From: Dyella sp. C11
GTDB lineage: Bacteria > Pseudomonadota > Gammaproteobacteria > Xanthomonadales > Rhodanobacteraceae
DNA: 64,000 nucleotides
Reading direction: 5' to 3'
Assembly (NCBI RefSeq): GCF_003121485.1
Contig: NZ_QAVX01000006.1
Location: forward strand, 1 to 64,000
A program made the translations under genes and the position numbers. Numbering within the stretch: position 1 is the first letter of the stretch; the number at the start of each line of letters is the position of its first letter. Below, in pieces: positions 27,609-58,223 of the stretch. The notes beneath the pieces are model-generated. The model ran no database searches. It was not told the origin of the DNA and worked only from the letters and a program-made list of their open reading frames with translations.

Positions 27609-27622
27609 CACGACGGCAATCC

Positions 27623-33310: not shown

Positions 33311-34330
33311 ATGCAAGCGAATGTAGGCGCCGTTGACGCCACCGTGCCCCAACAGGAAGCGCGCGCCCGCCGCGACGCTCGGCACGACCGCCTGTTCAGT
33401 TGGCTGCTCAAGGGCTGTGCCCTGCTGGTGCTGGCCTGTCTCCTCGGTGCCGCGGGAGCCACCCTGTGGGGTGGCCGCCATGCGTTTGGCACCTTCGGCT
33501 GGCACTTCCTGGTCAGCGACGCGTGGGATCCGGGTTCGGACACCTACGGCGCCCTGGTGCCGGTGTACGGCACGCTGATGACCTCGTTCATCGCGCTCGT
33601 CATTGCCGTGCCGATCAGCTTCGGCATCGCGCTGTATCTTTCCGAAGTGGCGCCGCCGTGGCTGCGCACGCCGGTGGCCTCGGCCATCGAACTGCTGGCC
33701 GGCATCCCTTCGATCATCTACGGCATGTGGGGCCTTTTCATCTTTGCGCCCTTCTTCGCCGACCACATCAAGCCGTGGCTGACCAACTACCTGGGCAACA
33801 AGCCCGACGACGGCAAGCTGTCGTGGGTGGCCCAGCACACGTTCCTCGGCAAGCTGTTCGGCAGTGACTATCCGTTCGGCGCCAGCATCCTGACGGCGGG
33901 TATCGTGCTCGCGGTGATGATCATCCCGTTCATTTCCTCGGTGATGCGCGAAGTGTTCCAGACGGTGCCTTCGCGCCTGAAGGAATCGGCGTATGCGCTG
34001 GGTTCCAGCACGTGGGAAGTCTCCTGGGACATCGTGCTGCCGTACACGCGCTCGGCGGTGATCGGCGGCATCTTCCTCGGCCTTGGCCGCGCACTGGGTG
34101 AAACGATGGCGGTGACTTTCGTGCTCGGCAACGCCATGCAGCTGTCGGCATCCATTCTCGATCCGGGCGCATCGATTGCGTCCACCATCGCCAACCAGTT
34201 CAGTGAAGCGGCGGGCCTGCAGAAGTCCTCGCTGATGGCCCTGGCCTTCCTGCTGTTCGTGGTGACCTTCATCGTGCTGTTGATTGCCCGCTGGATGCTG
34301 CGCCAGCTCGCCCACAAGGAGGGTCGCTGA
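33311..34330 (+). CDS. pstC: Phosphate ABC transporter permease PstC
   Basis: A 339-residue inner-membrane permease with about six helices. Markers are YGTLMTSFIALVIAVPISFGIALYLSE, ELLAGIPSIIYGMWGLF and the ABC-contact loop ESAYALGSSTWEVSWDIVLPYTRS. The periplasmic loop between the middle helices (about 145-200) is longer than in E. coli PstC, as often seen in this group. The ATG at 33311 is chosen because GAGGAA precedes it; the ATG at 33290 has no ribosome site. The 180-base gap after pstS shows no terminator. Confidence 0.93.
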   Translation: MQANVGAVDATVPQQEARARRDARHDRLFSWLLKGCALLVLACLLGAAGATLWGGRHAFGTFGWHFLVSDAWDPGSDTYGALVPVYGTLMTSFIALVIAVPISFGIALYLSEVAPPWLRTPVASAIELLAGIPSIIYGMWGLFIFAPFFADHIKPWLTNYLGNKPDDGKLSWVAQHTFLGKLFGSDYPFGASILTAGIVLAVMIIPFISSVMREVFQTVPSRLKESAYALGSSTWEVSWDIVLPYTRSAVIGGIFLGLGRALGETMAVTFVLGNAMQLSASILDPGASIASTIANQFSEAAGLQKSSLMALAFLLFVVTFIVLLIARWMLRQLAHKEGR

Positions 34331-41633: not shown

Positions 41634-43184
41634 TCATCCAGCAACGCGCAATGCATTGAGCCCGCCAGCCAACGAATACACCTGGGGCACGCCCTCGTCG
41701 CGTAACAGCCGCGCCGCATGGCCACTGCGACGCCCGCTGGCGCACACCAGCAACCAACGCCCTTCCTGTAGTTCGTCCGCCCGCTGCACCACTTGCGCGG
41801 AAGGCACGTGCATCGCTCCCGCGAGCGGCAGTGGATCGCAAGCCAGTTCTTCAGCCTCGCGTATGTCGATCAGCTGGAAGCCGGCAACCACCGCATCGTC
41901 CAGTCGATCGAAGACGAGGTCGATGTCGTCCTCGCCGCTGAGCCGATCAAGCGCGCGTCGCGCCACCTCGACGCAACCACCGTGCACCTCGCAGCCTTGC
42001 GTCGCGTCGATCGCCAGGTGCTGGACGGAAAGATCGATCAGGTTCACCAGCGACAACGCGCCCGCACGCGGCTGCGGCAAGCCAAGCAGATACTTCAGCG
42101 CTTCCGTGGCCTGCATGGCGCCCAGCACGCCGGGTACCGGCCCCAGCACGCCAGAAAGTGCACAGCTGCCCACGGATTCGGGCGACGGTTCCTGCGGCCA
42201 CAGGCAACGCAGGCATGGCGTGCCCGGCCTGGCCGCCACGAACTGCATCTGCCCTTCGTATTGATAGATGCTGGCAAGGATGAGCGGCGTGCTGCTGAGC
42301 ACGGACGCGTCGCTGCTGAGGTAACGGCTGCGCATGTCGTCCGTGCATTCGACCACCAGGTCGAACTGGCGAAACACGTCGACGGCATCGCGGGCAGTCA
42401 GCGGTTGCTTCCAGACCTGCACATTCACTGCCGGGTTGAGCGCGGCTACGCGACGCGCTGCAAGTTCGGCCTTGTATTCGCCGATGTCGCGTGCGTCGTA
42501 CATGACCTGGCGATGCAGGTTGCTGGCGTCGAGCCGGTCGCCATCGACGATGCCGAGCGTGCCGATACCCGCACCGGCGAGATAGCTGATCACCGGGCAA
42601 CCCAGGCCGCCGGCACCAATCACCAGCACACGCGAGGCCGCCAGTTTCGCCTGGCCTGCTTCGCCCACTTCGCGAAGGCGGATCTGTCTCGAATAGTCGG
42701 GCACGAACGGCGCGGCGTGATCGTGATGATGATGGTCGTGACCTTCGTGCTCGTGTTCGCGATACACATGCGTGCACGCCACCCAGTCCGATTCACCGGT
42801 GACGTAGTGTTCCTTCTTCCAGATCGGCAGGCGATGCTTGATCTCGTCGATGATGTATCGGCACGCGCGAAAGGCTTCGTCGCGGTGGGGCGCTGAAGCG
42901 CCGACCCACACCGCCATGTCGCCAATCTTCAGATCGCCGGTGCGGTGGACACAGCGCGCATCGCTCACGCCATAGCGCGCCATGGCCTCGGCAACAATGC
43001 GCTCGCCTTCCGCCACGGCGAGATCCGCATAGGCCTCGTAGGAAAGGCCATCCACTTCTTTCCCTTCGTTGCTGTTGCGCACCCAGCCTTCGAACGCGCA
43101 ATACCCGCCACTTTGCGGATGACGGAGCTGATCGCGCTGACGTGCGATATCGACCTCAACGCTGGAAAGTTCGAAACGGCTCAT
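41634..43184 (-). CDS. MoaE-MoeB-rhodanese triple fusion
   Basis: A 516-residue protein combining three molybdopterin steps. Residues 1-145 are MoaE, the large subunit of molybdopterin synthase, with the active-site lysine region IDEIKHRLPIWKKEH. Residues 144-157 are a His-rich linker (EHEHEGHDHHHHDH). Residues about 163-410 are MoeB/ThiF adenylyltransferase: GAGGLG at 190-195, zinc cysteines C324 and C327, and C341 in the SCALSG loop. The second zinc pair is C398 with H401 instead of Cys (GCEVHGG). Residues about 420-516 are a rhodanese with active C481 (CASGRRS). MoaD, which it would adenylate and sulfurate, is encoded just upstream with an ATGA overlap. Confidence 0.92.
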   Translation of the reverse strand: MSRFELSSVEVDIARQRDQLRHPQSGGYCAFEGWVRNSNEGKEVDGLSYEAYADLAVAEGERIVAEAMARYGVSDARCVHRTGDLKIGDMAVWVGASAPHRDEAFRACRYIIDEIKHRLPIWKKEHYVTGESDWVACTHVYREHEHEGHDHHHHDHAAPFVPDYSRQIRLREVGEAGQAKLAASRVLVIGAGGLGCPVISYLAGAGIGTLGIVDGDRLDASNLHRQVMYDARDIGEYKAELAARRVAALNPAVNVQVWKQPLTARDAVDVFRQFDLVVECTDDMRSRYLSSDASVLSSTPLILASIYQYEGQMQFVAARPGTPCLRCLWPQEPSPESVGSCALSGVLGPVPGVLGAMQATEALKYLLGLPQPRAGALSLVNLIDLSVQHLAIDATQGCEVHGGCVEVARRALDRLSGEDDIDLVFDRLDDAVVAGFQLIDIREAEELACDPLPLAGAMHVPSAQVVQRADELQEGRWLLVCASGRRSGHAARLLRDEGVPQVYSLAGGLNALRVAG

Positions 43185-43423
43185 CCGCCTGCCACCGGTG
43201 GAATGAAAACGATGGTGTCACCTTCGCGCAGTGGACGATCCCAGCTGCTGAATTCGGCATTCACGGCCACCTTCAACGCGTCGGCCACCAACGAGAAGCC
43301 GCGGCGGACGCGCAATTCATCGTAAAGACCGCGCAGCGACGTAGCATCAGTGGTCACCTGTTCACCATTGACGCCGGCCTGCTCACGCAATTGCGCGTAG
43401 TACTGAAGGTTCACCACGGTCAT
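43181..43423 (-). CDS. moaD: Molybdopterin synthase sulfur carrier MoaD
   Basis: An 80-residue ubiquitin-like protein ending in the required Gly-Gly (IVFIPPVAGG), the site of thiocarboxylation. It starts MTVVNLQYYAQLREQAG, the usual MoaD beta1-helix. The start at 43423 overlaps the mobA stop and its own stop overlaps the MoaE fusion start. It delivers sulfur to cyclic pyranopterin monophosphate after activation by the adjacent MoeB domain. Confidence 0.95.
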   Translation of the reverse strand: MTVVNLQYYAQLREQAGVNGEQVTTDATSLRGLYDELRVRRGFSLVADALKVAVNAEFSSWDRPLREGDTIVFIPPVAGG

Positions 43424-44019
43424 GCCATCGACTCCAGCCGTTGCTGCATCGCGTCCCGCTCCTCGGGTGTGTTGACGTTGTCCAGCGCATCTCCCGCCGC
43501 GGGCAACAGTTTCGCGTTCGATTGGATCAACGCCTTGCGCGGGCAATAGCTGCCATCGACGTACCTTTGGTGCAGCAGCGCATGGCTGGCCGGCTCCCAG
43601 ATGGCGCAAAGCGGTTCGGGCAAGCCGTCGTGGTTGCTGGCGAAAGCCGTGGCGGTCGCCCGTGGATCGCGCGCGTCGATCAAGTGGTGAAGCGTGTCCC
43701 GGTCGAGCAAGGGCAGATCGCAGGCGATCACCAGCCATGCCGCATCGGGAAAACGATCCTGCGCCGAGAGAATGCCAGCGACGGGGCCGATGGCATCGTA
43801 GCTATCCACGATCTGCGGAAGACCGGCGCGCAGCGGGTCGGCGCTCTGGCTGTCGCGCACGGATACGAATGCGCGTTCGGTGACCGCTTCCAGCAAGCGC
43901 CATGCCCGCAGCAGCTGAGGCTCGCCGCGATAGGCCAGCGCCGCCTTGTCCTGCCGCATGCGTTGACTGGCACCGCCACTCAGCAACAATCCATACAAGG
44001 GAGCCACGGTGTTGCTCAT
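43420..44019 (-). CDS. mobA: Molybdenum cofactor nucleotidyltransferase MobA
   Basis: A 199-residue nucleotidyltransferase. The signature LLLSGGASQRMRQDKAAL at residues 11-28 has the GxxxRMxxDK loop for nucleotide and metal; ACDLPLLDRDTL supplies a metal-binding Asp. The context (formate dehydrogenase needs the bis-MGD cofactor) favours MobA, GTP-specific, over the CTP-specific MocA. It overlaps moaC and moaD by a few bases each, so all three are translated together. Confidence 0.85.
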   Translation of the reverse strand: MSNTVAPLYGLLLSGGASQRMRQDKAALAYRGEPQLLRAWRLLEAVTERAFVSVRDSQSADPLRAGLPQIVDSYDAIGPVAGILSAQDRFPDAAWLVIACDLPLLDRDTLHHLIDARDPRATATAFASNHDGLPEPLCAIWEPASHALLHQRYVDGSYCPRKALIQSNAKLLPAAGDALDNVNTPEERDAMQQRLESMA

Positions 44020-44510
44020 GCGGCCTCCGTGGCATCGAAGTCGTGCTTGCCGCCCGACTTGGCGAGCAGGCGGATCTCGCCGATCACGATGTCGTGCGAC
44101 ATCGCCTTGCACATGTCGTAGATGGTGAGAGCCGCCACGCTGGCGCCGGTAAGCGCTTCCATTTCCACGCCGGTGCGTCCACTGCACGACACGGTGCAAT
44201 CGATGAATGCGTCCACGCCTTCCATCCGAATGGCGATATCGCACTTGTCGATGGCCAGGGGATGGCAAAGCGGAATCAATTGCGACGTGGCCTTGGCGCC
44301 CATGACACCGGCAATGTGCGCCACCGTCAGCACGGCACCCTTGGGAGTGACATAGCCGGCTTCATGAAGACGTTGCGCAACGTCGACCGGAAACGTCACC
44401 CGGGCGCGTGCACGTGCCGTGCGGCGGGTTTCCGCCTTGGCGCCCACATCGACCATGCGTGGTTGCTGCTGGTCGTCGACGTGGGAAAGCTGGGTGGGGT
44501 GAGCGGTCAC
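44016..44510 (-). CDS. moaC: Cyclic pyranopterin monophosphate synthase MoaC
   Basis: A 164-residue enzyme forming cPMP from the MoaA product. Family sequence is clear: LSHVDDQQQPRMVDVGAKAETRR, LIPLCHPLAID and VEMEALTGASVAALTIYDMCKA, with catalytic Lys in LAKSGGK. The GTG at 44510 is chosen because GGAG lies six bases upstream; the longer frame to a TTG at 44534 has none. It follows moaA after a 95-base gap that shows no riboswitch I can recognise. Confidence 0.94.
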   Translation of the reverse strand: MTAHPTQLSHVDDQQQPRMVDVGAKAETRRTARARARVTFPVDVAQRLHEAGYVTPKGAVLTVAHIAGVMGAKATSQLIPLCHPLAIDKCDIAIRMEGVDAFIDCTVSCSGRTGVEMEALTGASVAALTIYDMCKAMSHDIVIGEIRLLAKSGGKHDFDATEAA

Positions 44511-44605
44511 GAAAAACTCCGGAACGTCGGTCAAGGGGATTATCAGCCTGTGGCGGGCCTGGAGAATTAAGAAACCGTCTACGGCGCTGCCGCGGCCTGC
44601 CGGAT

Positions 44606-45652
44606 TCAGCCACCGATGTAATGCATCTCGATCTTGCGTGGCGCCTTGCCATGGTGCTCGGCCCGTTCCTCGCTGTAGCGGTCGTGGCGTTTCAGCCAGA
44701 CCTCGCGCAGGCGGCGGACCAGCATCTCGTCGCCGGCACCGTTGCGCAGCAAGGCACGCAGGTCGGTGCCCTGGGTGGCGAACAGGCAGGTATAAAGCAT
44801 GCCTTCGGAGGACAGCCGCGCCCGCGTGCAGCCGCCGCAGAACGGCTGGCTGATGGACGAGATCATGCCGATTTCGCCGGCGCCGTCGTCGAAGCGGTAT
44901 CGCGTGGCCACCTCGCCGGCGTATTTGGCGGGCAGCGCATGCAGCGGCCAGCGCGCATGGATGCGTTGCACCAGCTCGGCCGAAGGCACGACCGATTCGC
45001 GGTGCCAGTCGTTGCGATTGCCCACGTCCATGTATTCGATGAAGCGCACCACCGTGCCCGTGCCGCGAAAACGTTCGACCAGGTCGATCACCGTGTGATC
45101 GTTCACGCCGCGCTGCACGACAGTGTTGAGTTTCACGCCATGGGGAAAACCGGCAGCCCGCGCTGCATCGATGCCGGCCAGCACGTCATCGAGTGCACCG
45201 CGACCACCGCTCATGCGATGGAACAGCGCGGGGTCCAGCGTGTCCAGGCTGACGGTGACGCGATCAAGGCCCGCATCACGTAGAGCGTCGGCATGACGCG
45301 CCAGCAACAAACCGTTTGTGGTCAGGGCAAGATCGGTAATGCCATCCAGCCGACGCAGTCGAGCGACCAGTTCGTCCAGGTGTGGACGAAGCAACGGCTC
45401 GCCGCCCGTCAAACGCAGCTTGCTTACGCCTTGCGTCGCCGCAAGGCGACACAGGCGTTCGATCTCGTCGAAGTCCAGGCGTTCGTCGTTGCGCAAGAAG
45501 GTGAAGTGTTCGCCGTAGGTGGATTCGGGCATGCAATACGGGCAACGGAAATTGCAGCGATCCATGACCGAGATGCGCAGATCGTGCAACGGCCTGCCCA
45601 GCTGATCGATCGGCCGTGCGGTTGCCTCGTTGATGGAATCCAACACGTTCAT
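44606..45652 (-). CDS. moaA: GTP 3',8-cyclase MoaA
   Basis: A 348-residue radical SAM enzyme starting molybdopterin synthesis from GTP. The N-terminal SAM cluster is CNFRCPYC near residue 33, with LRLTGGEPLLR as the SAM-binding GGE motif. The C-terminal second cluster has CGGCTRARLSSEG and a later Cys in MLYTCLFATQG. It ends in Gly-Gly, required for MoaA activity. The ATG at 45652 is one base from the moeA stop. Confidence 0.96.
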   Translation of the reverse strand: MNVLDSINEATARPIDQLGRPLHDLRISVMDRCNFRCPYCMPESTYGEHFTFLRNDERLDFDEIERLCRLAATQGVSKLRLTGGEPLLRPHLDELVARLRRLDGITDLALTTNGLLLARHADALRDAGLDRVTVSLDTLDPALFHRMSGGRGALDDVLAGIDAARAAGFPHGVKLNTVVQRGVNDHTVIDLVERFRGTGTVVRFIEYMDVGNRNDWHRESVVPSAELVQRIHARWPLHALPAKYAGEVATRYRFDDGAGEIGMISSISQPFCGGCTRARLSSEGMLYTCLFATQGTDLRALLRNGAGDEMLVRRLREVWLKRHDRYSEERAEHHGKAPRKIEMHYIGG

Positions 45653-45653
45653 G

Positions 45654-46856
45654 TCACCACCGCCAGAACGTTGCCACCGTACCGCTGGGCGCCTTGCCCG
45701 TGCCCGGCGGCAGCTGTACGAAGCCTTGCGTGCGCGGCAGCGAGGAAAAGTCACCGGACGTTTTCGACGGTACCGGAGTGGCCATCAACCGGCCCTGGTC
45801 GTCGGTTTTCACGTGAGCTGGAACAAAGCTCACCAGCATCGGATTGAGGTCGACCTCGCCGTCGAGACATACAGTTTCGGGCGAAATCGCCGACTCGCCC
45901 TGCGCTGCCCTCAAAGCCGGAAGCGCGTAGCGCGTGGCGCAAACCAGTGCCGAGACAGGGTTGCCCGGCAGCGCGAACACCACCTGCCCTCGCGGGCCAA
46001 GGCCGAACCACATCGGCTTGCCGGGCTTCTGAGCAATGCGATGCAGCACTTTGCGTACGCCTTGCGCGGCCAGTGCCTCGGGCACGTAGTCACGCTGACC
46101 CATCGACACACCACCGGAGAGCACGAGCACATCGTGCCGCTCCAGCAGCTCGGCAATGCGCACGCGCGTCTCGGCTTCGTCGTCGGCAATGTGCTCCATC
46201 ACCACCCGGTCGAATCCATGCAGGCGCAACGCGGCACGCACGGCGGTGTCGTTGGAGCGGCGAATCTGGCCTTCGCCAAGAGGGGCATCAACCTCCACCA
46301 GCTCGTCGCCGGTAGAAACGATGGCCATCGACGGCGTATTGGCCACCTCCACCTTCGCCACGCCATTCGCCGCGAGCAAGGCCATTTCCGCCGGCCCCAG
46401 GCGCATGCCGGAGGAAAGCAGCAGCGTTCCCTGGGTGCAGTCGGAACCGCGTCGATGGATGAACTGGCCGGCCATCGGGCGGCAATCATCCCGCAGGAGG
46501 TAGACATCGCCATCGCGCCGCAGCTGCTCGACGGGAATCACGCAGTCGCATCCATCAGGCAGCATGGCGCCCGTGGTGACTTCGAGGCATGCGTCGGCAT
46601 CGGCAAGCGACTGTCGACGCATGCCGGCCATTTGCGAACCGGCCACGCGAAGTCGTCGCGGCATCGCTTCCGACCAGCGCACGGCAATGCCATCCATCAT
46701 CACGCGATCAAACGGCGGGTGATCGTGTTCGGCATGCACGGATTGCCGGAGCACGCGGCCGACGGCATCGTCCAGCGACACTTGCCCGCTGCCGAACGAG
46801 GGCATGTGCTCGGCAATCAGGGCTTCGGCCTGGCTGACGCTGATCAGTTCGCTCAT
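45654..46856 (-). CDS. moeA: Molybdopterin molybdenumtransferase MoeA, copy 1
   Basis: A 400-residue MoeA that inserts molybdate into adenylated molybdopterin. Markers are FDRVMMDGIAVR, AMLPDGCDCVIPVEQ, IVSTGDELVE and SGGVSMGQRDYV, and the MPT-binding loop ALPGNPVSAL. The ATG at 46856 gives the conserved MSELISVSQAEALI start; longer starts at 46865, 46898 and 46925 exist and the last would overlap modC. It is one of two moeA genes in the same cluster, and less standard (no Cys-free deletion seen). Confidence 0.88.
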   Translation of the reverse strand: MSELISVSQAEALIAEHMPSFGSGQVSLDDAVGRVLRQSVHAEHDHPPFDRVMMDGIAVRWSEAMPRRLRVAGSQMAGMRRQSLADADACLEVTTGAMLPDGCDCVIPVEQLRRDGDVYLLRDDCRPMAGQFIHRRGSDCTQGTLLLSSGMRLGPAEMALLAANGVAKVEVANTPSMAIVSTGDELVEVDAPLGEGQIRRSNDTAVRAALRLHGFDRVVMEHIADDEAETRVRIAELLERHDVLVLSGGVSMGQRDYVPEALAAQGVRKVLHRIAQKPGKPMWFGLGPRGQVVFALPGNPVSALVCATRYALPALRAAQGESAISPETVCLDGEVDLNPMLVSFVPAHVKTDDQGRLMATPVPSKTSGDFSSLPRTQGFVQLPPGTGKAPSGTVATFWRW

Positions 46857-46908
46857 GGTGTCCATCGTGCCGGGAAAGGAATCCAGCTGCCACAGCATAT
46901 CGCCATGG

Positions 46909-47997
46909 TCAGATGCCCAGCGCAACGGCTTTTACCTGGGCCCAGGCATCGCTGCCGGGCGCCAGGCCCAGCGCATGCCAGGAGCGGCGGGTGATGCGTG
47001 CCAACAGCAGACTGCCGCCCGCATCCAGTTGCACGAGCACCTGGGAAGGATGGTCCGCGTCGGCCACCGCGACGATCCGGCAAGGCAGCTGATTGAGCGC
47101 ACTGGTGCCTACCTGGGGTACCCGGGCCACCACCACGTCGCGCGCACCGATGCGGCACCGCAGGCGTTGCCCCACCTGCTCGTGACGATAAGGCAGCCAC
47201 AGCTTTCCTCCCGGGAAAGCCAGCTGGATAAGCTGGTCGTGCGCGTCGTAATCCACCACCTGCCCTTCGATGACCGCCCCCACGGCCTCACCCAGCGTCG
47301 GCGGAAGATCCAGCCGTATCAGGGTGTCCTGCAAGCTGCCCTGCGCGACGACGTGTCCGGCATCCATCAGCACCAGGTGATCGGCGAGACGAGCCACTTC
47401 TTCCACGTTGTGGCTTACATAGATCATCGGCACGCGCAGCGAAGCGTGCAGTGACTCCAGGCAACCCAGCAGATCCGTGCGCGCCGTGCCGTCCAGCGCG
47501 GACAGGGGCTCGTCGAACAGCAACAACGCGGGATCGGAAAGCAACGCGCGAACCATGGATACGCGCTGGCGCTCGCCGCCGGACAGCGTATCGACACGAC
47601 GATCCAACAAAGCGTTCAGGCCAAAGCGTTCGACCAGTCCATCGCGATCCAGGTGCGCCGGGCGCCCCGCGCGTCGAAAGCCGAAATCCAGATTGCCCGC
47701 GACAGTGCGGTGCGTGAACAGGCCAGGCTCCTGGAACACGTAGCCGATGCGCCGGCGATGCGGCGGTATGAAGACGCGACGCTCGGTGTCCTGCCACACG
47801 GCCTGCCCGAAATTCACCCGGCCGACCGCATCGCGTTCCAGGCCGGCAATGGCCCGCAGGCAACTGGTCTTGCCTGCGCCCGAGGGGCCGAACAAGGCGG
47901 TGATGCCCTGCGCAGGCAGCGTCAGGTCGACGTCAAACGCCAGTGCCCCGCGGCGCCAGCCAAGCCTGGCGTGCAGTCCATGCGCCGCCTCAGTCAC
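46909..47997 (-). CDS. modC: Molybdate ABC transporter ATPase ModC
   Basis: A 362-residue ABC ATPase. Walker [10 protein letters not shown] is at about 37-45, signature [16 protein letters not shown] and Walker [14 protein letters not shown] follow, with the switch His in [13 protein letters not shown]. The C-terminal third is the molybdate-binding TOBE (MopI-like) domain, with [13 protein letters not shown] and [20 protein letters not shown]. The start is a GTG at 47997, overlapping modB by eight bases. Function depends on ModB, which is interrupted here. Confidence 0.92.
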
Positions 47998-48673
47998 GTG
48001 CCGGCCTGCGCGTGCGCAACAGCGACATGGCGAGCAACGCCGCAAACGACACGGCCAACAGGCAGAGCGACAACACGTTGGCCTGATGGTATTCGCCGGC
48101 CTGCACGTGATCGTAGATGCGCATCGACAGCACGCGCGTCTGCCCGGGTATGTTGCCGCCAATCATCAGCACCACGCCGAATTCGCCCACCGTGTGGGCA
48201 AAGCCGAGCACGGCTGCCGTGACCACGCCCGGCAAAGCAAGCGGAAGCGCAACGGTGAAGAAGCGATCCAGCGGGCCGGCGCCCAAACAGGCGGCCACTT
48301 CCAGCGGTCGACGTCCCACGGCTTCGAACGCGTTGTGCAACGGCTGCACCACGAATGGCAGCGAATACAGCATCGACGCCACCACCAATCCTTTGAAGGT
48401 GAACGGCAACGCGGCCCACCCCATCGCCGCCAAGGCTCGCCCCACCATACCGTTAGGTCCCAACAGCATCAGCAGGTAGAAACCCAGCACGGTGGGCGGC
48501 TATACCAGCGGCAATGCGACCACGGCGGCCAACGGCCGACGCCAGCGCGAGCGCGTGTGCGCCAGCCACCAGGCCAGCGGCAGTCCCAGCCCCAGCAACA
48601 GCAAGGTGACCGTGGTCGCGAGCCGCAACGTCAGGCCCAACGCTTCCATGTCCGCCTGGGTCAGCAGCCCCAT
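47990..48673 (-). pseudogene. modB: modB interrupted by an amber codon
   Basis: The permease frame starts at an ATG at 48673 (MGLLTQADMEALGLTLRLAT) and reads 57 codons to LPLV. Then a TAG (48502-48500) stops it. In the same frame the family sequence continues ([17 protein letters not shown]) to 47990, for a total of about 227 codons, a normal ModB length. One base change (TTG to TAG) would explain it, since the ModB family has LPLVLPPTVLG here. The remainder keeps the EAA-type loop ([21 protein letters not shown]). Starts inside the second part, such as the GTG at 48490, would lose the first helix. Sequencing error cannot be excluded. Confidence 0.85.
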
Positions 48674-48682
48674 GAACGTGGC

Positions 48683-49459
48683 TCAGTGCGCCGTGTCGTC
48701 GGGCAGGTTGAACCCGTAGCGCGAAAGAATCGCCTTGCCCTGCGCGCCCTGCACGTAGCTGGCGAAATCCTGGGCGAGAGCGTTGTCCTTGCCGCGTTGC
48801 GTGAGCACGAAGCTCTGCTTCAGCGGCTCATAGAGCGACGGCGGCACCGGCACGAACGAGCCCTTTACCGTCGAGTTCACCACCAGCGATTCGGCCACCA
48901 GACCTACCTGCGCGTTGCCGCTTTGTGCGAACTGCGCGGTCTGGCTGATGTTGTCACCAAACACCAGTCGCGATTGCACCTGATCCCAGATGCCAGCGGC
49001 GCGCAACGCCTGTTCGGCCCGCTTGCCATATGGCGCGTGCTGAGGATTGGCGATGGCGATGCGACCAAACTTCGGCTGCGCGAGATCCGCCACCTGCACG
49101 CCTTTCATGTCGATGCTCGCGCTCCACATCACCAGGTGCCCGAGCGCGTACGGCACCGGCGTTCCACCCGCCTTGCCGTGATCGACCAGTTGCTGCGGGT
49201 AGCCGCTGTCCGCCGAAAAGAACAGTTCGAACGGCGCGCCCTGCTCGATCTGCGTGAGCAGGTTGCCGGACGAGCCGTACACCACGTCGATGCGGCTGTC
49301 GGGATGATCGTGGCGATAAGCCGCCACCACGTCGTCGAGCGCCTGGTGAAGATCCGCCGCGGCGGCGACGGTGATGTGATTGTCTGCGGGCGCAGCCGTC
49401 GTCACCGACGTCCACACCGCACCCAGTACCAGCAAACCTTGCAGCAGCCGACGGATCAT
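48683..49459 (-). CDS. modA: Molybdate-binding periplasmic protein ModA
   Basis: A 258-residue binding protein with a signal peptide (MIRRLLQGLLVLGAVWTSVTTAAPA). The mature sequence starts ITVAAAADLHQALDDV and has YGSSGNLLTQIEQGAPFELFFSAD, carrying the Ser residues that contact molybdate, and GDNISQTAQFAQSGNAQVGLV. The ATG at 49459 has AGAGGAG at good distance; the longer frame is rejected. It overlaps nothing but is only nine bases upstream of modB. Confidence 0.93.
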   Translation of the reverse strand: MIRRLLQGLLVLGAVWTSVTTAAPADNHITVAAAADLHQALDDVVAAYRHDHPDSRIDVVYGSSGNLLTQIEQGAPFELFFSADSGYPQQLVDHGKAGGTPVPYALGHLVMWSASIDMKGVQVADLAQPKFGRIAIANPQHAPYGKRAEQALRAAGIWDQVQSRLVFGDNISQTAQFAQSGNAQVGLVAESLVVNSTVKGSFVPVPPSLYEPLKQSFVLTQRGKDNALAQDFASYVQGAQGKAILSRYGFNLPDDTAH

Positions 49460-49871: not shown

Positions 49872-51128
49872 TCACGCTCCCGTTGGATACGTACCGACGC
49901 CCGGCGGCGTCCCTGGCTGCAGGCTGGCAATGCGAACCGGCTTGCCAGCATCAACGCTTTGTTCACTACCCTGCAGCATCACCCATGCATTCGCTTGCGC
50001 GAACGGCTGTATGCGAAACGGCTGCTGTTGCGCGAGCACCTGCGCATGAAGGCGGCCGTCCTCACCCTGCGCCACGCTGGCCCGCAGGAAATGCAGCAGG
50101 CCGCCTTTCAGTTGCTGCGGCGTATCCAGCACGGCCTGCATCGTGCGCTCCGGTTGCTCGCCGTGCATGGCGCGCAGCACCGGCGCAATGAAAAAGCGCA
50201 AGCCCACGGCCACCGCCATCGGCGTGCCGGGCAACGCGAAAACCAGGGCATCGCCAAGCACGGCCGCCAGCTGCGGCTTGCCGGGGCGAATGGCCACCTT
50301 GTGGAACAGCACGCGCGCGCCCAGCTGCGCCAGTGCATCCGGGACGAAGTCGTAACGTCCCATGGACACGGCACCCGTGCTGACGATCAGATCCGCGCCC
50401 ACAGCGCGTGCACGATTCACCGCCGCTACGAAGGTGCCGCTGGTGTCGTCCACCGTTTCGCAGGCGAGCACGTGCGCGCCCAGCCCGGCGAAAGCGGCCA
50501 CGAGATAGGGTCCGTTTGAGCCGTAGATCTGACCATCACCCAGCGCTTGCGTGGGGTCGGCCTGCAATTCCTTGCCCGTGCAGATGATGGCCACGCGCGG
50601 TGCGCGAACGACCGCGACCGAGGCCACCCCAAGCGCGGCCAGCAGCATGATGTGGCTGGGTTCGATGCGCGTACCGGCCTTGATGGTCACCGCGCCCTTG
50701 GCCACGTCGCTCCCGGCATAACGTACGTTCGCTTTCGGCGGCAGCACATCGAGCAGGCGGATGCGCGCGGGCGAACCATCCGCGTGTCGCTCAAGCAGTT
50801 CGGTGCGTTCCACCGGCACCACGGTATCGAGACCGTCGGGGAGTCGCGCGCCGGTCATGATCTCCCACGCCACGCCTTCCGATGCCCTCGCCGTATCGCC
50901 CGCGGCCTGCGAGCCTTGCACCACGTGTTCGGAACCGGCAGCCAGTGCGCCCGCGGCATGCAATGCATAGCCATCCATGGCGGAGTGATCGAACGACGGC
51001 AGGTCCATCGGGCTCACCACATCACTCGCCAGCACCTTGCCCAGCGCGCCGGCTGTTGCACAGGCCACGGCATCGAGCGGCCTGGCGTGCCGCAGCAGTC
51101 CGATCAGGGCGTCGTCATAACCGATCAT
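49872..51128 (-). CDS. moeA: Molybdopterin molybdenumtransferase MoeA, copy 2
   Basis: A 418-residue MoeA paralog. It starts MIGYDDALIGLLRHARPL and carries SFDHSAMDGYALH, ARLPDGLDTVVPVE, IICTGKEL, STGAVSMGRYDFV and FALPGTPMAV. The two MoeA copies diverge strongly, so one may serve a different cofactor form or have a specialised partner. The ATG at 51128 is chosen by homology; the frame extends to a GTG at 51227 that would add 33 residues without domain. It is the first gene of the minus-strand molybdenum block, divergent from the formate dehydrogenase operon. Confidence 0.88.
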   Translation of the reverse strand: MIGYDDALIGLLRHARPLDAVACATAGALGKVLASDVVSPMDLPSFDHSAMDGYALHAAGALAAGSEHVVQGSQAAGDTARASEGVAWEIMTGARLPDGLDTVVPVERTELLERHADGSPARIRLLDVLPPKANVRYAGSDVAKGAVTIKAGTRIEPSHIMLLAALGVASVAVVRAPRVAIICTGKELQADPTQALGDGQIYGSNGPYLVAAFAGLGAHVLACETVDDTSGTFVAAVNRARAVGADLIVSTGAVSMGRYDFVPDALAQLGARVLFHKVAIRPGKPQLAAVLGDALVFALPGTPMAVAVGLRFFIAPVLRAMHGEQPERTMQAVLDTPQQLKGGLLHFLRASVAQGEDGRLHAQVLAQQQPFRIQPFAQANAWVMLQGSEQSVDAGKPVRIASLQPGTPPGVGTYPTGA

Positions 51129-51388
51129 GCGAAAGCGTGGCCTGGGTCGTGGCGCAATGGCGTATGTCTTCGCATGCTCCGTGTGAGCGCGGCGGCATGC
51201 AAGGGCTTTGGACGTTTCCGTTGTCACAATCCGTTGCGCCGCAGCAACACCGTGAGTGCCAATTGGGCATAGTGCGGTTTCAGTGCAGGGCGTTCGACCA
51301 TGGTCGGCTGGCGCAGCCTCCGTGGCAGTTCAAAGATCGCGCGTGATACGGGCTGGGGAGCCCGGCAACCATCAAGGGGGAGATGCTC

Positions 51389-53038
51389 ATGGTAGGTGAT
51401 GCAGACGTCCTGACTTCGGCGCGCGATGACGCGCCGTCCGTGCTGTCCCGGGAACGAACGATTGCCGGGCCGCGCTTCAACCGCTGGCTGGTGCCGCCAG
51501 CGGCGTTGGCGATCCACCTGAGCATCGGCATGGCCTATGGCTTTTCCGTGTTCTGGCTGCCGATGACCAAGCTGTTGTCGGAAGCCGATCCGGCCGCCTG
51601 CGCCAACCTGGGCTTTCTCGCCCAGCTGTTCACCACGGCCTGCAACTGGACCGTGCCGGCGGTGAACCACATCTTCGAAACCTTCATCGCCGTGCTCGGC
51701 ATTTCGGCCGCCATCTGGGGCAAGTGGCTGGAACACGCGGGACCGCGCAAAGCCGGCTTCGTGGCCGCGTTGTGCTGGGGCGGCGGCCTGGTGGTCGGTG
51801 GCATCGGTGTGTCGATGCACCAGTTGTGGCTGGTCTACCTGGGGGCGGGCGTACTCGGCGGCATCGGACAAGGGCTGGGCTACATCACGCCCGTATCCAC
51901 GCTGATCAAATGGTTCCCCGACCGGCGAGGACTGGCGACCGGCTTCGCCATCATGGGTTACGGCGGCGGCGCCATGATCGGCGCTCCAATTGCCGTGGCG
52001 CTGATGCAGAAGTTCTCCAGCGGCGGCGTACCGGGCGTGTCGTCCACGCTGATCTGCATGGGCGCCATTTATCTCATGGCGATGATGGCGGGCGCGTTCG
52101 GCTTCCGCGTACCACCTTCCGGCTGGCGCCCGTTGGGCTGGACGCCGAGCGAGTCGACCAACAAGCTGATCACGCATCGTCACGTGCACCTCAGCCGCGC
52201 GTGGAAAACGCCGCAGTTCTGGCTGATCTGGATGGTGCTGTGCATGAACGTCACCGCCGGCATCGGCGTGCTGTCCATGGCCAGCCCCATGTTCCAGGAC
52301 GTGTTTGGCGGTCGACTGCTGGGACTGGATTCGTCCGTGGTGTTGAGCACGGCACAGAAGGCCGCCATCGCGGCATCCGCCGCCGGCCTCGTCGGCCTGA
52401 TCAGCCTGTTCAACAGCCTGGGGCGCATCTTCTGGGCGTCGACCTCCGACTTCATCGGTCGCAAGAAGACGTACTTCATCTTCTTCGCGCTGGGCATCGT
52501 GCTTTATTGCCTGCTGCCGACACTGGGCCACATGGGTATGGCCGCCCTGTTCGTGCTGGCGGTATGCGTGATCCTGTCGATGTACGGCGGTGGTTTTGCC
52601 ACGGTGCCGGCGTACCTGTCGGACATCTTCGGCACGCAGATGGTTGGCGCCATCCACGGCCGCCTGCTCACCGCATGGTCGGTGGCCGGCGTCGCCGGGC
52701 CCTTCCTGATTGCCGCCGTGCGCCAGGCGCAGCTGGATGCGGGAGTTGCAAAGAACCTCGTTTACGATCGCACGCTCTATATCCTTGCCGTTCTGCTGCT
52801 GGTGGGCATGATCTGCAACCTGCTGATCAAACCGGTGAAGGAAACCGCGTTGATGAGCGAGCAGGAACTGGAACGCGAAAAATCGCTGCAGCACGAAGCC
52901 GTTTCGGTGTCCGCACGTGCACAGGACGCCGCCCGCGGCGGCTTTGGCGCCGTCGGTTTCGTCGCCTGGGCACTGGTAGGCATTCCGTTCCTGATCGGCG
53001 TATGGATAGCGATAAGCAAGGCCGCGGCCTTGTTCTGA
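51389..53038 (+). CDS. OFA-family MFS transporter
   Basis: A 549-residue major facilitator of the oxalate/formate antiporter group. It has 12 predicted helices and the segments WLVPPAALAIHLSIGMAYGFSVFWLPMTKLL, GGIGQGLGYITPVSTLIKWFPDRRGLATGFAIMGYGGGAMIG and LGRIFWASTSDFIGRKKTYF. Its place at the head of the formate dehydrogenase operon, 22 bases before fdsG, makes formate (or oxalate/formate) the probable substrate. The ATG at 51389 is chosen because the strong AAGGGGGAG lies six bases upstream, rather than immediately abutting the ATG at 51383. Confidence 0.88.
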   Translation: MVGDADVLTSARDDAPSVLSRERTIAGPRFNRWLVPPAALAIHLSIGMAYGFSVFWLPMTKLLSEADPAACANLGFLAQLFTTACNWTVPAVNHIFETFIAVLGISAAIWGKWLEHAGPRKAGFVAALCWGGGLVVGGIGVSMHQLWLVYLGAGVLGGIGQGLGYITPVSTLIKWFPDRRGLATGFAIMGYGGGAMIGAPIAVALMQKFSSGGVPGVSSTLICMGAIYLMAMMAGAFGFRVPPSGWRPLGWTPSESTNKLITHRHVHLSRAWKTPQFWLIWMVLCMNVTAGIGVLSMASPMFQDVFGGRLLGLDSSVVLSTAQKAAIAASAAGLVGLISLFNSLGRIFWASTSDFIGRKKTYFIFFALGIVLYCLLPTLGHMGMAALFVLAVCVILSMYGGGFATVPAYLSDIFGTQMVGAIHGRLLTAWSVAGVAGPFLIAAVRQAQLDAGVAKNLVYDRTLYILAVLLLVGMICNLLIKPVKETALMSEQELEREKSLQHEAVSVSARAQDAARGGFGAVGFVAWALVGIPFLIGVWIAISKAAALF

Positions 53039-53060
53039 TCAAGATAGACAAGGTGGAAAC

Positions 53061-53561
53061 ATGAAACGCGCGGTAAACGGCCCGTCGCTGGCGGACATTC
53101 CCGAAAACATCCGCATCGTCGTACTTGAAGTGACGGAACGACTGAAAGACACCCCCGGCGCCCTGCTTCCCGTGCTGCACGGCATTCAGGATGCGCTGGG
53201 TTACGTGCCCGAAGCATCCGTGCCCCTCATCGCCCGCGAGCTGAACCTCTCGCGGGCCGATGTGCACGGCGTCATCAGCTTCTATCACTACTTCCGGCAG
53301 AAGCCCGCGGGGCGGCATGTGATCCACCTTTGCCGGGCGGAATCGTGCCAGGCCATGGGTGCCGTCACGCTGGAAAAACATGTGAAACAGCGCCTGGGCG
53401 TAGACTTTCACGAGACGACGAAAGACGGCCAATACACGCTGGAGCCGGTTTATTGCCTGGGCAACTGCGCGTGTTCGCCGGCCATGATGGTGGATGGCGA
53501 GCTGCAGGGTCGCGTGACACCCGAACGTTTCGACGCCTGGCTTGCCGCGGAGGTTGAATGA
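53061..53561 (+). CDS. fdsG: NAD-dependent formate dehydrogenase gamma subunit FdsG
   Basis: A 166-residue thioredoxin-like [2Fe-2S] protein of the NuoE family. Cluster cysteines are in CRAESC (about residues 94-99) and CLGNCAC (about 133-137). The N-terminal helical domain ends GYVPEASVPLIARELNLSRADVHGVISFYHYF. It passes electrons between the FMN subunit and the alpha subunit. It overlaps fdsB by four bases. Confidence 0.94.
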   Translation: MKRAVNGPSLADIPENIRIVVLEVTERLKDTPGALLPVLHGIQDALGYVPEASVPLIARELNLSRADVHGVISFYHYFRQKPAGRHVIHLCRAESCQAMGAVTLEKHVKQRLGVDFHETTKDGQYTLEPVYCLGNCACSPAMMVDGELQGRVTPERFDAWLAAEVE

Positions 53562-55111
53562 GCATCACGGTCTACGTGCCACGCGATGCCAGTGCGCTGT
53601 CGCTGGGAGCCGACGCGGTGGCCGACGCCATCGCGTCGGAAGCGGCTCGCCGTGGTATCGACGTGCATGTCGTGCGCAACGGATCACGCGGCCTGTTCTG
53701 GCTTGAGCCGCTGGTGGAAGTGGCCACGGCAGAAGGCCGCATCGCGTATGGCCCGGTGCAGGCCGACGACGTGGCATCCCTGTTCGATGCAGGCTTCCTG
53801 CATGCCGGTGATCACGCGCTCGCGCTCGGCCCTGCGGAATCCATCGATTACCTAAAACGGCAACAGCGACTGACGTTCGCCCGTGTCGGCATCGTCGACC
53901 CGCGCAGCCTGGAGGATTACCTCGCGCACGGCGGCTATCGCGGCCTGGAGAACGCGCTGCGCATGAGCGGCTCGGACATCGTGCAGACGGTGACGGACTC
54001 GGGCCTGCGTGGACGCGGCGGCGCCGCCTTTCCCACGGGCATCAAGTGGAAAACGTGCCTGGACGCGAAAGCCGACCAGAAGTACGTGGCCTGCAATGCC
54101 GACGAAGGTGACTCAGGCACCTACGCCGACCGCATGATCATGGAAGGCGATCCGTTCGTGCTGCTGGAAGGCATGACCATTGCCGGCATCGCGACGGGCG
54201 CTACGCACGGTTACATCTACCTGCGTGTGGAATACCCGCATGCGCAGCGGTCACTGCTCGCCGCCATCGCTGCCGCCGAAGCACATGGCTATCTCGGCAA
54301 TGACGTGCGCGGCAGTGGCAACGCGTTCCACATCGAGGTTCGCCTGGGCGGCGGCGCGTACATCTGCGGCGAAGAAACCTCCATGTTGGAGTCGCTGGAA
54401 GGCAAGCGCGGCCAGGTGCGCGTGAAGCCGCCACTGCCCGCCATCCACGGATTGTTCGGCAAGCCGACGGTGATCAACAACGTGATCACCTTCTCATCGG
54501 TGCCGGTGATCCTCGACAAGGGCGCAGAACACTATCGCGACTACGGTAGCGGCAAATCACGCGGCACGTTGCCCCTCCAGCTCGCGGGCAACCTGAAGCG
54601 CCCCGGCCTGGTGGAACTCGCTTTTGGCACGAGCCTGCGCGAACTCATCGAAGGTTACGGCGGTGGCACGGCCAGCGGGCGGCCGGTGCGCGCGGTGCAG
54701 GTCGGCGGCCCTCTGGGTGCCTACATTCCCGCCTCCCGACTCGATGCACCCATCGACTATGAAGGTTTTGCGGCCATCGGCGGCATGCTCGGCCATGGTG
54801 GCGTGGTGGTCTTCGACGACACGGTGAACATGGCGGCGCAGGCGCGTTACGCCATGGAATTCTGCGCCATCGAATCCTGCGGCAAATGCACGCCTTGCCG
54901 CATCGGTTCCACCCGCGGCGTGGAAGTGATCGACCGCATGATGGTTAGCGACAACGCCGGTCGTCAGCGCGACGAAGTACTGCTGCGCGATCTCTGCCAC
55001 ACCATGGTCGCCGGCTCGCTCTGCGCACTCGGCGGCATGGCGCCCTTTCCCGTGCTCAGCGCGCTGGATCATTTCCACGAAGATTTCGTGGCTTCGGATG
55101 TTGCGAGTTGA
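53558..55111 (+). CDS. fdsB: Formate dehydrogenase beta subunit FdsB
   Basis: A 517-residue NuoF-like flavoprotein that reduces NAD+. The N-terminal 110 residues are a thioredoxin-like domain; the NADH/FMN domain has GLRGRGGAAFPTGIKW, CNADEGDSGTYADR and GAYICGEETSMLESLEGKRGQ. The [4Fe-4S] site is ESCGKCTPCRIGS with a fourth Cys near DLCHTM. Lengths and order of motifs match FdsB of Cupriavidus and Rhodobacter. A class A repeat lies between this gene and fdsA. Confidence 0.95.
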   Translation: MSITVYVPRDASALSLGADAVADAIASEAARRGIDVHVVRNGSRGLFWLEPLVEVATAEGRIAYGPVQADDVASLFDAGFLHAGDHALALGPAESIDYLKRQQRLTFARVGIVDPRSLEDYLAHGGYRGLENALRMSGSDIVQTVTDSGLRGRGGAAFPTGIKWKTCLDAKADQKYVACNADEGDSGTYADRMIMEGDPFVLLEGMTIAGIATGATHGYIYLRVEYPHAQRSLLAAIAAAEAHGYLGNDVRGSGNAFHIEVRLGGGAYICGEETSMLESLEGKRGQVRVKPPLPAIHGLFGKPTVINNVITFSSVPVILDKGAEHYRDYGSGKSRGTLPLQLAGNLKRPGLVELAFGTSLRELIEGYGGGTASGRPVRAVQVGGPLGAYIPASRLDAPIDYEGFAAIGGMLGHGGVVVFDDTVNMAAQARYAMEFCAIESCGKCTPCRIGSTRGVEVIDRMMVSDNAGRQRDEVLLRDLCHTMVAGSLCALGGMAPFPVLSALDHFHEDFVASDVAS

Positions 55112-55152
55112 AACGCATGTTCAACAATCTTCGCCAGGCCCACTCCCCTCAC

Positions 55153-55240
55153 CGTCATTCCAGCGAAGGCTGGAATCCAGTGCCTTCAGGCTCTAACGCG
55201 GCGAGAAAGCCACTGGATTCCGGCCTTCGCCGGAATGACG
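55153..55240. repeat. Class A inverted pair inside the fds operon
   Basis: Arms starting 55153 (CGTCATTCCAGCGAAGGCTGG) and ending 55240 are inverse copies around about 28 bases. The pair fills most of the 187-base gap between fdsB and fdsA. Confidence 0.85.
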
Positions 55241-55298
55241 GTGAGGGAGTAGATAGCTGTCGAAACATGTTGAACTGGCAGTAAGGAGATAGGTCGTC

Positions 55299-58223
55299 AT
55301 GCTTTCCATCGTCGAAATCGATCTCGGCACACCCAAGTCGACCTCATCCACCGTGGTCGCACTGGAGATCGATGGCCGAACGGTACAGGTGCCCGAAGGC
55401 ACCTCGATCATGCGTGCCGCTGCCCAAGCGGGCATCAGCATTCCCAAGCTCTGCGCCACCGAAATGCTCGATGCGTTCGGTTCGTGCCGCCTTTGCCTGG
55501 TGGAGATTGAAGGACGCAGGGGCTATCCCGCTTCGTGCACCACACCGGTGAGCGAGGGCATGAAGGTGACCACGCAGACGCCAAAACTCGCGGATATCCG
55601 CCGCGGCGTGATGGAGCTGTACATCTCCGATCATCCGCTCGACTGCCTCACCTGCCCGGCCAACGGTCACTGCGAACTGCAGGACATGGCAGGCGTGGTG
55701 GGACTGCGCGAAGTGCGCTACGGCTACGACGGTGCCAATCATGTTTTTGCGCGCATCCCAGCGCGCGAAGATCAAGAAGCGGCCATCCCTGGCCGCACTC
55801 TTCAAACAAAGCCCAATCCGCTGTATTCGCCCAAGGACGAATCCAACCCCTACTTCACCTTCGATCCCTCCAAATGCATCGCCTGCTCGCGTTGCGTGCG
55901 CGCCTGTGACGAAGTGCAAGGCACCTTTGCGCTCACCATCCAGGGCCGCGGCTTCGAATCCAAGGTATCGGCCAGCCAGAACAACCGCTTCCTCGATTCC
56001 GAATGCGTTTCCTGCGGCGCCTGCGTGCAGGCCTGCCCCACGGCGACGCTTTCCGAGAAGTCGCTGATCGAGAAAGGACAGGCCGAGCACAGCGTGATCA
56101 CCACCTGTGCCTACTGCGGTGTCGGATGCAGCTTCCGCGCGGAGATGAAGGGCCAGGACATTGTGCGCATGGTGCCCAACAAGGAGGGTCACGCCAATCA
56201 CGGTCACTCCTGCGTGAAGGGGCGTTTCGCCATTGGCTATGCCACGCACCCGGATCGCATCACCACGCCGATGATCCGCGCCAGGATTTCCGATCCATGG
56301 CGCGTCGTGAGCTGGGACGAAGCCGTGGCGCACGTCGCCAACGAGTTCAAGCGCTTGCAGGCCACCTATGGCCGGCACGCCGTGGGCGGCATCACCTCGT
56401 CACGTTGCACCAACGAGGAAACCTATCTTGTGCAGAAACTGGTACGCGCCGGTTTCGGCAACAACAACGTGGATACCTGCGCACGCGTGTGCCATTCGCC
56501 CACCGGCTACGGCCTGAAGTCCACGCTGGGCGAATCGGCCGGCACGCAGGATTTCGATTCGATCCTGTCGACCGACGTGGTGCTGGTGATCGGCGCCAAC
56601 CCCACCGACGCGCATCCCGTGTTCGGTTCGCAGATGAAGCAGCGCCTGCGCGATGGCGCGCGACTGATCGTGATCGATCCGCGTCGCATCGATCTGGTGC
56701 GTACACCGCACATCAAGGCCGACTATCACCTGCGCCTGCGCCCCGGCACCAATGTCGCCGTGCTCGATTCGCTTGCGCACGTGATCGTTACGGAAGGCTT
56801 GGTCGATGAGGCGTTCGTCGCCAGCCGTTGCGAGCCGGAAGCCTTTGCCAAGTGGCGCGACTTTGTATCGCAGGACAAGTACAGTCCCGAAGCGATGGAG
56901 AGCACGACCGGCGTGCCTGCCGCGTTGATACGCGGTGCCGCGCGCCTGTACGCCACCGGCGGCAACGCGGCGATCTACTACGGCCTGGGCGTCACCGAGC
57001 ATGCGCAAGGCTCGACCTCGGTGATGGCGATTGCCAACCTCGCCATGGCCACGGGCAATATCGGACGCGAAGGCGTGGGCGTGAACCCGCTGCGCGGCCA
57101 GAACAACGTGCAGGGTTCGTGCGACATGGGCTCGTTCCCGCATGAATTCCCCGGTTATCGGCATGTGAGCGACACCACGGTCCGCCAGTCGCTGGAGCAG
57201 GCCTGGGGCGTGCCGTTGCTGGGCGAACCCGGCCTGCGCATTCCCAACATGTTCGAAGCGGCGCTGGATGGCAGCTTCAAGGGCCTGTACATCGAAGGCG
57301 AGGACATCGCGCAATCGGACCCGGACACGCAGCACGTCACCGCCGCGCTCACGGCGATGGAATGCATCGTGGTGCAGGACTTGTTCCTCAACGAAACCGC
57401 CAAGTTTGCGCACGTCTTCCTGCCCGGCAGCTCCTTCCTGGAAAAGGACGGCACCTTCACCAACGCCGAGCGCCGCATGTCGCGCGTGCGCAAGGTGATG
57501 GAACCCAAGGGTGGTTACGCCGACTGGGAAATTACCCAACTGTTGGCGCAGGCCATGGGTTATCCGATGAACTACACGCATCCCTCACAGATCATGGACG
57601 AGATTGCGCAGCTCACCCCGACGTTCCACGGCGTGAGCTACGAGAAGATCGACCAGCTGGGCTCCGTGCAGTGGCCCTGCAACGACGAAGCACCGCTGGG
57701 TACGCCGGTGATGCACGTGGATGAATTCGTGCGCGGCAAAGGCCGATTCATGCTGACCGAATACGTGCCCACTACGGAAAAGGTGAATGCGGAACATCCG
57801 CTGATCCTCACCACCGGTCGCATCCTCAGCCAGTACAACGTGGGTGCGCAGACACGCCGCACGGCCAACGTGATGTGGCATGACGAGGATCGCCTGGAAA
57901 TCCATCCGCACGATGCCGAGGAACGTGGCATCACCGACGGCGATTGGGTCGGCATTGTCAGTCGCGCGGGCGAAACCGTCCTGCGGGCGATGGTGTCCGA
58001 CCGCATGCAGCCGGGCGTGGTCTATACCACGTTCCACTTCCCGGGCTCCGGTGCCAACGTCATTACCACCGAGAACTCCGACTGGGCCACCAATTGCCCC
58101 GAGTACAAGGTGACGGCCGTGGAAGTGACACGCGTGACGCAGCCATCCGAATGGCAGAAGCGACACCGTGCCTTCACCGAGGCGCAGGAAGCGCTGCTCG
58201 ATCAGTCGGTGAAACCCGCTTGA
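55299..58223 (+). CDS. fdsA: Formate dehydrogenase alpha subunit FdsA
   Basis: A 974-residue molybdenum subunit oxidising formate to CO2. In order: a [2Fe-2S] ferredoxin domain (CGSCRLC-type: FGSCRLCLVEIEG), a His-Cys3 cluster region (DCLTCPANGHCELQD), two [4Fe-4S] clusters (CIACSRCVRACDEV and CVSCGACVQACPT), a further cluster at CAYCGVGC, and the bis-MGD domains. The Mo ligand is C398 with H399 next to it (ARVCHSPTGYGL), i.e. a Cys, not selenocysteine. MGD-binding sequences such as GLGVTEHAQGSTSVM and HVFLPGSSFLEKDGTFTNAERR follow. AGGAGA precedes the ATG. Confidence 0.95.
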   Translation: MLSIVEIDLGTPKSTSSTVVALEIDGRTVQVPEGTSIMRAAAQAGISIPKLCATEMLDAFGSCRLCLVEIEGRRGYPASCTTPVSEGMKVTTQTPKLADIRRGVMELYISDHPLDCLTCPANGHCELQDMAGVVGLREVRYGYDGANHVFARIPAREDQEAAIPGRTLQTKPNPLYSPKDESNPYFTFDPSKCIACSRCVRACDEVQGTFALTIQGRGFESKVSASQNNRFLDSECVSCGACVQACPTATLSEKSLIEKGQAEHSVITTCAYCGVGCSFRAEMKGQDIVRMVPNKEGHANHGHSCVKGRFAIGYATHPDRITTPMIRARISDPWRVVSWDEAVAHVANEFKRLQATYGRHAVGGITSSRCTNEETYLVQKLVRAGFGNNNVDTCARVCHSPTGYGLKSTLGESAGTQDFDSILSTDVVLVIGANPTDAHPVFGSQMKQRLRDGARLIVIDPRRIDLVRTPHIKADYHLRLRPGTNVAVLDSLAHVIVTEGLVDEAFVASRCEPEAFAKWRDFVSQDKYSPEAMESTTGVPAALIRGAARLYATGGNAAIYYGLGVTEHAQGSTSVMAIANLAMATGNIGREGVGVNPLRGQNNVQGSCDMGSFPHEFPGYRHVSDTTVRQSLEQAWGVPLLGEPGLRIPNMFEAALDGSFKGLYIEGEDIAQSDPDTQHVTAALTAMECIVVQDLFLNETAKFAHVFLPGSSFLEKDGTFTNAERRMSRVRKVMEPKGGYADWEITQLLAQAMGYPMNYTHPSQIMDEIAQLTPTFHGVSYEKIDQLGSVQWPCNDEAPLGTPVMHVDEFVRGKGRFMLTEYVPTTEKVNAEHPLILTTGRILSQYNVGAQTRRTANVMWHDEDRLEIHPHDAEERGITDGDWVGIVSRAGETVLRAMVSDRMQPGVVYTTFHFPGSGANVITTENSDWATNCPEYKVTAVEVTRVTQPSEWQKRHRAFTEAQEALLDQSVKPA

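Follow-up and report, generated by a model that had tools for sequence, protein, structure and literature searches.

The window analysed here comprises 64,000 nucleotides of the draft genome of Dyella sp. C11 (4.73 Mb in 46 contigs) and carries a molybdate uptake operon in which the permease gene, modB, is interrupted by an in-frame TAG (Table 1). modB is flanked by modA and modC, in the order modA-modB-modC. Read on the minus strand from 48673 to 47990, it encodes 57 ModB residues, the TAG at 48502-48500, a further 169 residues in the same frame, and a final TGA. With the stop read through, the whole frame matched the permease model TIGR02141 at 240 bits (cut-off 182.6 bits) with the single TAG inside, which bears out the preliminary description of a ModB frame that continues past an amber codon. 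The two pieces are collinear with the TIGR02141 profile (positions 2-45, then 47-207). The 57-residue piece scored 35.1 bits, and the 169-residue C-terminal piece, at 193.8 bits, exceeded the cut-off by itself. Under the standard code no uninterrupted modB frame was found at this locus, as the frame is closed at codon 58. The operon resembles ModABC systems in its gene order and in family scores above the cut-offs, but differs from them by this stop. The intact ModB of the relative G015 aligns with the solved ModB structures 2onk_C and 3d31_C.

The neighbouring genes that were examined are open, in line with the preliminary description. Both modA and modC are open frames with clear family matches. 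Because modC starts within the last bases of modB, translation of the two genes is probably coupled. Comparison with relatives revealed no internal stop in the moeA-like gene or in any of five moa/moe loci lying from 41637 to 46865, a set that leaves out a small gene near 43181-43423 (below the length filter). The molybdoenzyme said to be encoded nearby was identified as FdsA by its TIGR01591 match. The fds genes, together with a lactate/formate-type MFS transporter (51383-58223), have counterparts in the mod region of G015 and are absent from the compared mod regions of G003, G019, G007, and G002. Judged from these gene contents, the block beside the Mo-cofactor genes may represent a patchy insertion or loss.

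Table 1. Features of the molybdate region, with coordinates in the window and the basis of each assignment.
Feature	Coordinates	Strand	Basis
modB, permease gene of the molybdate ABC transporter, with a stop at codon 58	47990..48673	-	TIGR02141 and reading frame
In-frame TAG, codon 58, Leu in relatives	48500..48502	-	Frame reading, relatives
N-terminal piece, 57 residues, ending within the second hydrophobic stretch (residues 47-73)	48503..48673	-	TIGR02141 35.1 bits; hydropathy
Codon 86, TGG (Trp), in a column that is Leu in 18/18 relatives	48416..48418	-	Alignment
Possible restart product, 166 residues, from GTG 48490	47990..48490	-	ORF; weak ribosome-binding context
modA, molybdate-binding protein, open frame	48683..49459	-	TIGR01256 203.7 bits; no internal stop; start from ORF reading
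modC, ATPase, open frame, GTG start (47997) overlapping the end of modB	46909..47997	-	TIGR02142 390.2 bits for 46912-47994
moeA-like molybdotransferase, open frame	49872..51227	-	NF007960 286.2 bits, below the model cut-off of 440; free of stops in comparison with five relatives
Downstream Mo-cofactor genes (moe/moa type)	41634..46925	-	ORFs; names from ORF reading
fds-type NAD-linked formate dehydrogenase genes	53061..58223	+	Smaller subunits named from ORF reading
FdsA	55299-58223	+	TIGR01591 952.3 bits for 55299-58220

Among the genomes compared, the stop was confined to Dyella sp. C11. A modB above the family cut-off was present in 60 of 101 genomes, and an internal stop was found in one of these 60, that of Dyella sp. 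C11. When the 20 genus genomes were searched at the DNA level, 19 of them, Dyella sp. C11 included, gave a modB match. The comparison with close relatives that had been proposed revealed leucine at the position of codon 58 in all 18 other genus modBs, with no stop in any of the aligned proteins. Leucine was likewise found in 80 of 80 named loci (the best 80 of 576), again with no stop in the aligned part. These two samples probably overlap, as Dyella jiangningensis is one of the named loci and is probably the same as G009 among the 18; this species is also the nearest named relative among the best 80 of 576, in a search that may omit records of Dyella sp. C11 itself, with 90% identity over the C-terminal ModB piece. 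The expectation of leucine, drawn in the preliminary description from family knowledge, was thus correct. The accompanying proposal of a one-base change from TTG to TAG is valid only if the lineage had TTG: this is the codon in 7/18 genus modBs, and CTG is used in 11/18. The modABC tree placed Dyella sp. C11 in a group (support 72) with two genomes that have CTG, G015 and G016, whereas G003, the nearest relative by DNA identity (82.0% over modABC), has TTG. A one-base origin of the stop is therefore possible, but not established.

modA was present in 19/20 genus genomes. Of the 19 genomes other than Dyella sp. C11, 18 carry both modA and modB and one (G017) carries a Wtp-like set, which makes Dyella sp. 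C11 the exception. With this distribution, a long-term loss in the genus looks disfavoured, and the exceptional status of the strain is in keeping with a mutation that arose in the strain or in culture, or with an error of assembly.

Apart from the stop, modB of Dyella sp. C11 showed neither relaxed selection nor further lesions typical of pseudogene decay, the one additional unusual change being L86W. Its dN/dS against seven close relatives was 0.072-0.101, compared with a mean of 0.077 among those seven (21 pairs, range 0.027-0.137). Values of 0.096-0.183 were obtained for the 57 codons before the stop, and 0.063-0.078 for the codons after it. For modA, dN/dS was 0.091-0.140 (mean among relatives 0.118), and for modC 0.091-0.167 (mean among relatives 0.116). 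At the 143 columns that are invariant in the 18 relatives (142 by a second method, which gave the same two differences), modB of Dyella sp. C11 differs at two, namely the stop and L86W, where all 18 relatives have a leucine codon. The earlier statement that modB has no other defect is consequently right with respect to further stops, but has to be qualified by this substitution. In a leave-one-out comparison each relative had 0-4 unique changes, so that a single change such as L86W is within the usual number. Had constraint been absent along the whole branch, about 76-106 changes would be expected at the invariant columns (assumed branch dS 0.25-0.35). One amino-acid change beyond the stop, against this expectation, points to a young lesion. 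As a rough bound from these counts, the lesion, if real, would be confined to the last ~4.5-6% of the branch.

The genome of Dyella sp. C11 still contains several Mo-enzyme genes. Three matches to PF00384 were found, to fdsA in the window and to frames on contigs C9 and C13. The frame on C9 (C9:94685-96124, L207) contains an in-frame TGA and reads like a candidate selenocysteine formate dehydrogenase; such a match is present in 20/20 genus genomes. The C13 match we take, by its size, to be NuoG and not a Mo-enzyme. PF20256 matched two frames, on C4 and C23, and PF00174 gave one partial match in the window (38.9 bits, cut-off 24). Another type of PF00384 match, covering the full length (1-353), occurs in 17/20 genus genomes and is absent from Dyella sp. 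C11, G012, and G017. The corresponding protein of G015 (L147:5050-7722) is a NapA-type periplasmic nitrate reductase (1584 bits).

To gauge the quality of the assembly around modB, we set 39 conserved window loci against their counterparts in one to five relatives (queries of at least 80% identity and at least 130 aa, 60% covered, overlapping frames dropped). modB was the sole locus of the 39 with a stop inside the gene against every tabled relative. Its row lacks G015, which was removed by the coverage filter, but the same single stop was obtained with G015 before filtering. All remaining stops lay before the likely start or appeared against some relatives only. Those near extended starts (9666, 13251-13326, 20081, 30931, 45787, 53555, and 61713) were not counted; the stop at 45787 appeared against G015 only and lies ahead of the ORF start at 45754, and the stop at 53555 appeared against the sole tabled relative, just ahead of the ATG at 53558. 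Stops at 33865-34204 were also not counted, as they belong to an extended ORF in two of five relatives. A single in-gene stop among 39 loci speaks against a generally error-prone assembly, although one wrong base is still compatible with it.

The normal dN/dS, the single clear defect, and the stop-free relatives together point either to an error or to a lesion of very recent origin. Both had been listed in the preliminary description, along with uptake by another route, for which an intact sulfate ABC transporter is indeed present. We lean towards a single nonsense mutation of very recent date in the one modB gene found in the strain. The Mo-enzyme genes still in the genome speak against it, and two changes would be needed if the lineage had CTG, like its tree neighbours. 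A further point against it is that the back-up route is poor in E. coli BL21(DE3) (PMC3149613).

Less probable, though far from negligible, is a sequencing or assembly error, in which case modB of the strain would be intact and ModABC normal. Single nonsense changes or base errors both occur in draft bacterial genomes. The lack of relaxed selection in modB, the modAB or Wtp-like set in all 19 other genus genomes, the retained Mo-enzyme and cofactor genes, and the 46-contig draft state of the assembly are all consistent with an error. However, the 39-locus comparison suggests that such errors are infrequent, and a true codon CTG, as in 11/18 relatives, would require two wrong bases. The change is, moreover, a substitution and not a homopolymer indel, and substitutions are the less common type of error on some platforms. 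In the assembled sequence a mutation and a base-calling or assembly error give the same picture, and the data do not decide between them.

We also considered whether the stop could be real and ModB still partly functional, either through low-level misreading of the TAG or through a restart (at GTG 48490, ATG 48469, or later) that yields a split permease. This is unlikely. The genome has 47 tRNA matches (RF00005), and ARAGORN found no CTA anticodon in 30 tRNA loci and 15 stretches covering the other 17 matches; a suppressor tRNA able to read UAG was thus rejected. In favour of a restart, GTG 48490 is in frame nine bases past the stop, the C-terminal piece exceeds the TIGR02141 cut-off without the N-terminal one, and the rest of modB is apparently under intact selection. 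The anti-SD pairing of this GTG (-2.8 kcal/mol) is weak, as is that of the other restart context adjoining the stop (-3.1 kcal/mol), but modB's own start is equally weak (-1.9 kcal/mol), and stronger ribosome-binding contexts exist deeper in the gene (ATG codon 84, -4.7 kcal/mol; ATG codon 101, -7.2 kcal/mol). On the other hand, a protein made by restart would be missing its first hydrophobic stretch and some of the second (residues 47-73), and a later start would remove even more. The same split was present in none of the relatives compared, and recency explains the normal selection equally well. A stricter form, in which the 57-residue piece and the piece restarted at GTG 48490 assemble into a working split ModB, as a gene fission frozen by selection, would account for the normal dN/dS without recency, but we regard it as very improbable. 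Least credible of all is that the stop is recoded in a programmed way, is a conserved regulatory element, or reflects an alternative genetic code, since nothing speaks for this beyond the in-frame stop within an otherwise conserved gene, the stop recurs in 0/18 genus modBs and 0/80 named loci (best 80 of 576), a CTA-anticodon tRNA was not found, and the other 38 conserved window loci have no counted in-gene stop.

If a recent nonsense mutation is indeed present, translation would break off at residue 57, partway through the second hydrophobic stretch. A product ending there would not be a complete ModB permease, and a working ModABC importer would therefore not be expected. Translation of modC and downstream expression may also drop, through lost coupling and polarity. 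With plentiful molybdate, some Mo-enzymes could still be loaded via CysPTWA or another oxyanion permease, as judged from other bacteria.

A second modB was not found, as all further TIGR02141 matches in the genome stayed below the cut-off. The other six matches to this model were examined as Mo permeases and rejected, being CysT, CysW, PstC, PstA, and two sugar-type permeases. PstC (TIGR02138, 300.4 bits) and PstA (TIGR00974, 271.4 bits) are both encoded in the window, and the two permeases on C6 best match UgpE/UgpA-type sugar permeases, below the cut-offs of those models. The cysPTWA genes are present and open, adjacent to each other on C1. CysT scored 393.9 bits (cut-off 246.1), CysW 415.9 bits (cut-off 329.1), and the sulfate-binding protein beside them 517.7 bits (cut-off 288); an ABC ATPase with a TOBE domain adjoins cysT/cysW. 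CysT exceeded its cut-off in 20/20 genus genomes. By analogy with other bacteria, CysPTWA could serve as a low-affinity molybdate route in the strain. Uptake of molybdate via the sulfate system is described for mod-defective strains in PMC3149613 and PMC4710039, and entry by the sulfate transporter is stated in general form in PMC7759655.

A close parallel is E. coli BL21(DE3), which lacks modABC, modE, and modF and has kept its Mo-enzyme genes in spite of the missing high-affinity transporter. Molybdate added to BL21(DE3) can be taken in through the sulfate transporter, and nitrate reductase activity was regained with molybdate and fnr. When fnr was supplied together with 1 mM molybdate, FDH-H reached at best 10% of the K-12 level, and FDH-N did not recover in the absence of ModE (PMC3149613). 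The two cases differ in that BL21(DE3) carries a deletion, with partial recovery, whereas Dyella sp. C11 has a single in-frame stop known from one assembly.

WtpABC-type tungstate/molybdate transporters were considered as a further route. A three-gene Wtp-like set (L211:3245-5921) lies beside a YdeP-type enzyme gene in G017, the genus member without modA and modB, with family scores below the curated cut-offs. None of the remaining 19 genomes of the genus gave a match to its binding protein, and no Wtp-like transporter was found in the genome of Dyella sp. C11. G017 was initially a candidate precedent for life without a Mo transporter, but was dropped because the Wtp-like set adjoins its Mo-enzyme genes.

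The modB stop of Dyella sp. C11 is a real observation of an ordinary kind, and most likely does not reflect a new genetic mechanism. A high importance is not supported, since isolated nonsense changes are commonplace and PMC3149613 already documents that Mo-enzymes of E. coli BL21(DE3), which lacks ModABC, recover in part when molybdate is added. The case adds nothing new on recoding, and its relevance lies mainly with users of this strain. If the stop is real, the strain would be a natural mod mutant, whose formate oxidation should depend on a higher molybdate supply in the medium. The broken gene could also hide in automatic annotation, because its C-terminal piece is sufficient to exceed the ModB cut-off. 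A literature search on modB premature stops, pseudogenes, and Dyella molybdate or formate dehydrogenase returned no comparable case by title among the papers listed, a good part of which concern Neisseria or phase-variable DNA methyltransferase mod genes. In a survey of Brucella ABC systems modB is entered as present, in a text version in which the bold marking of broken genes is illegible.

MOT1-type transporters were searched for with PF16983, which gave three matches in the genome, two of them above the cut-off of 30 bits (C41, 37.2 bits; C7, 31.4 bits). All three proteins were assigned to the SulP sulfate permeases by PF00916 (window, 197.9; C41, 199.8; C7, 180.9 bits); scored as whole proteins with PF16983, they gave 27.9, 32.9, and 28.8, respectively. 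PF16983 matches above the cut-off were present in 19/20 genus genomes and are thus not special to Dyella sp. C11. The SulP proteins are possible oxyanion routes. The one encoded in the window (26112-27614) is a SulP-family sulfate permease with a weak MOT1 match, and the C41 and C7 proteins are similar.
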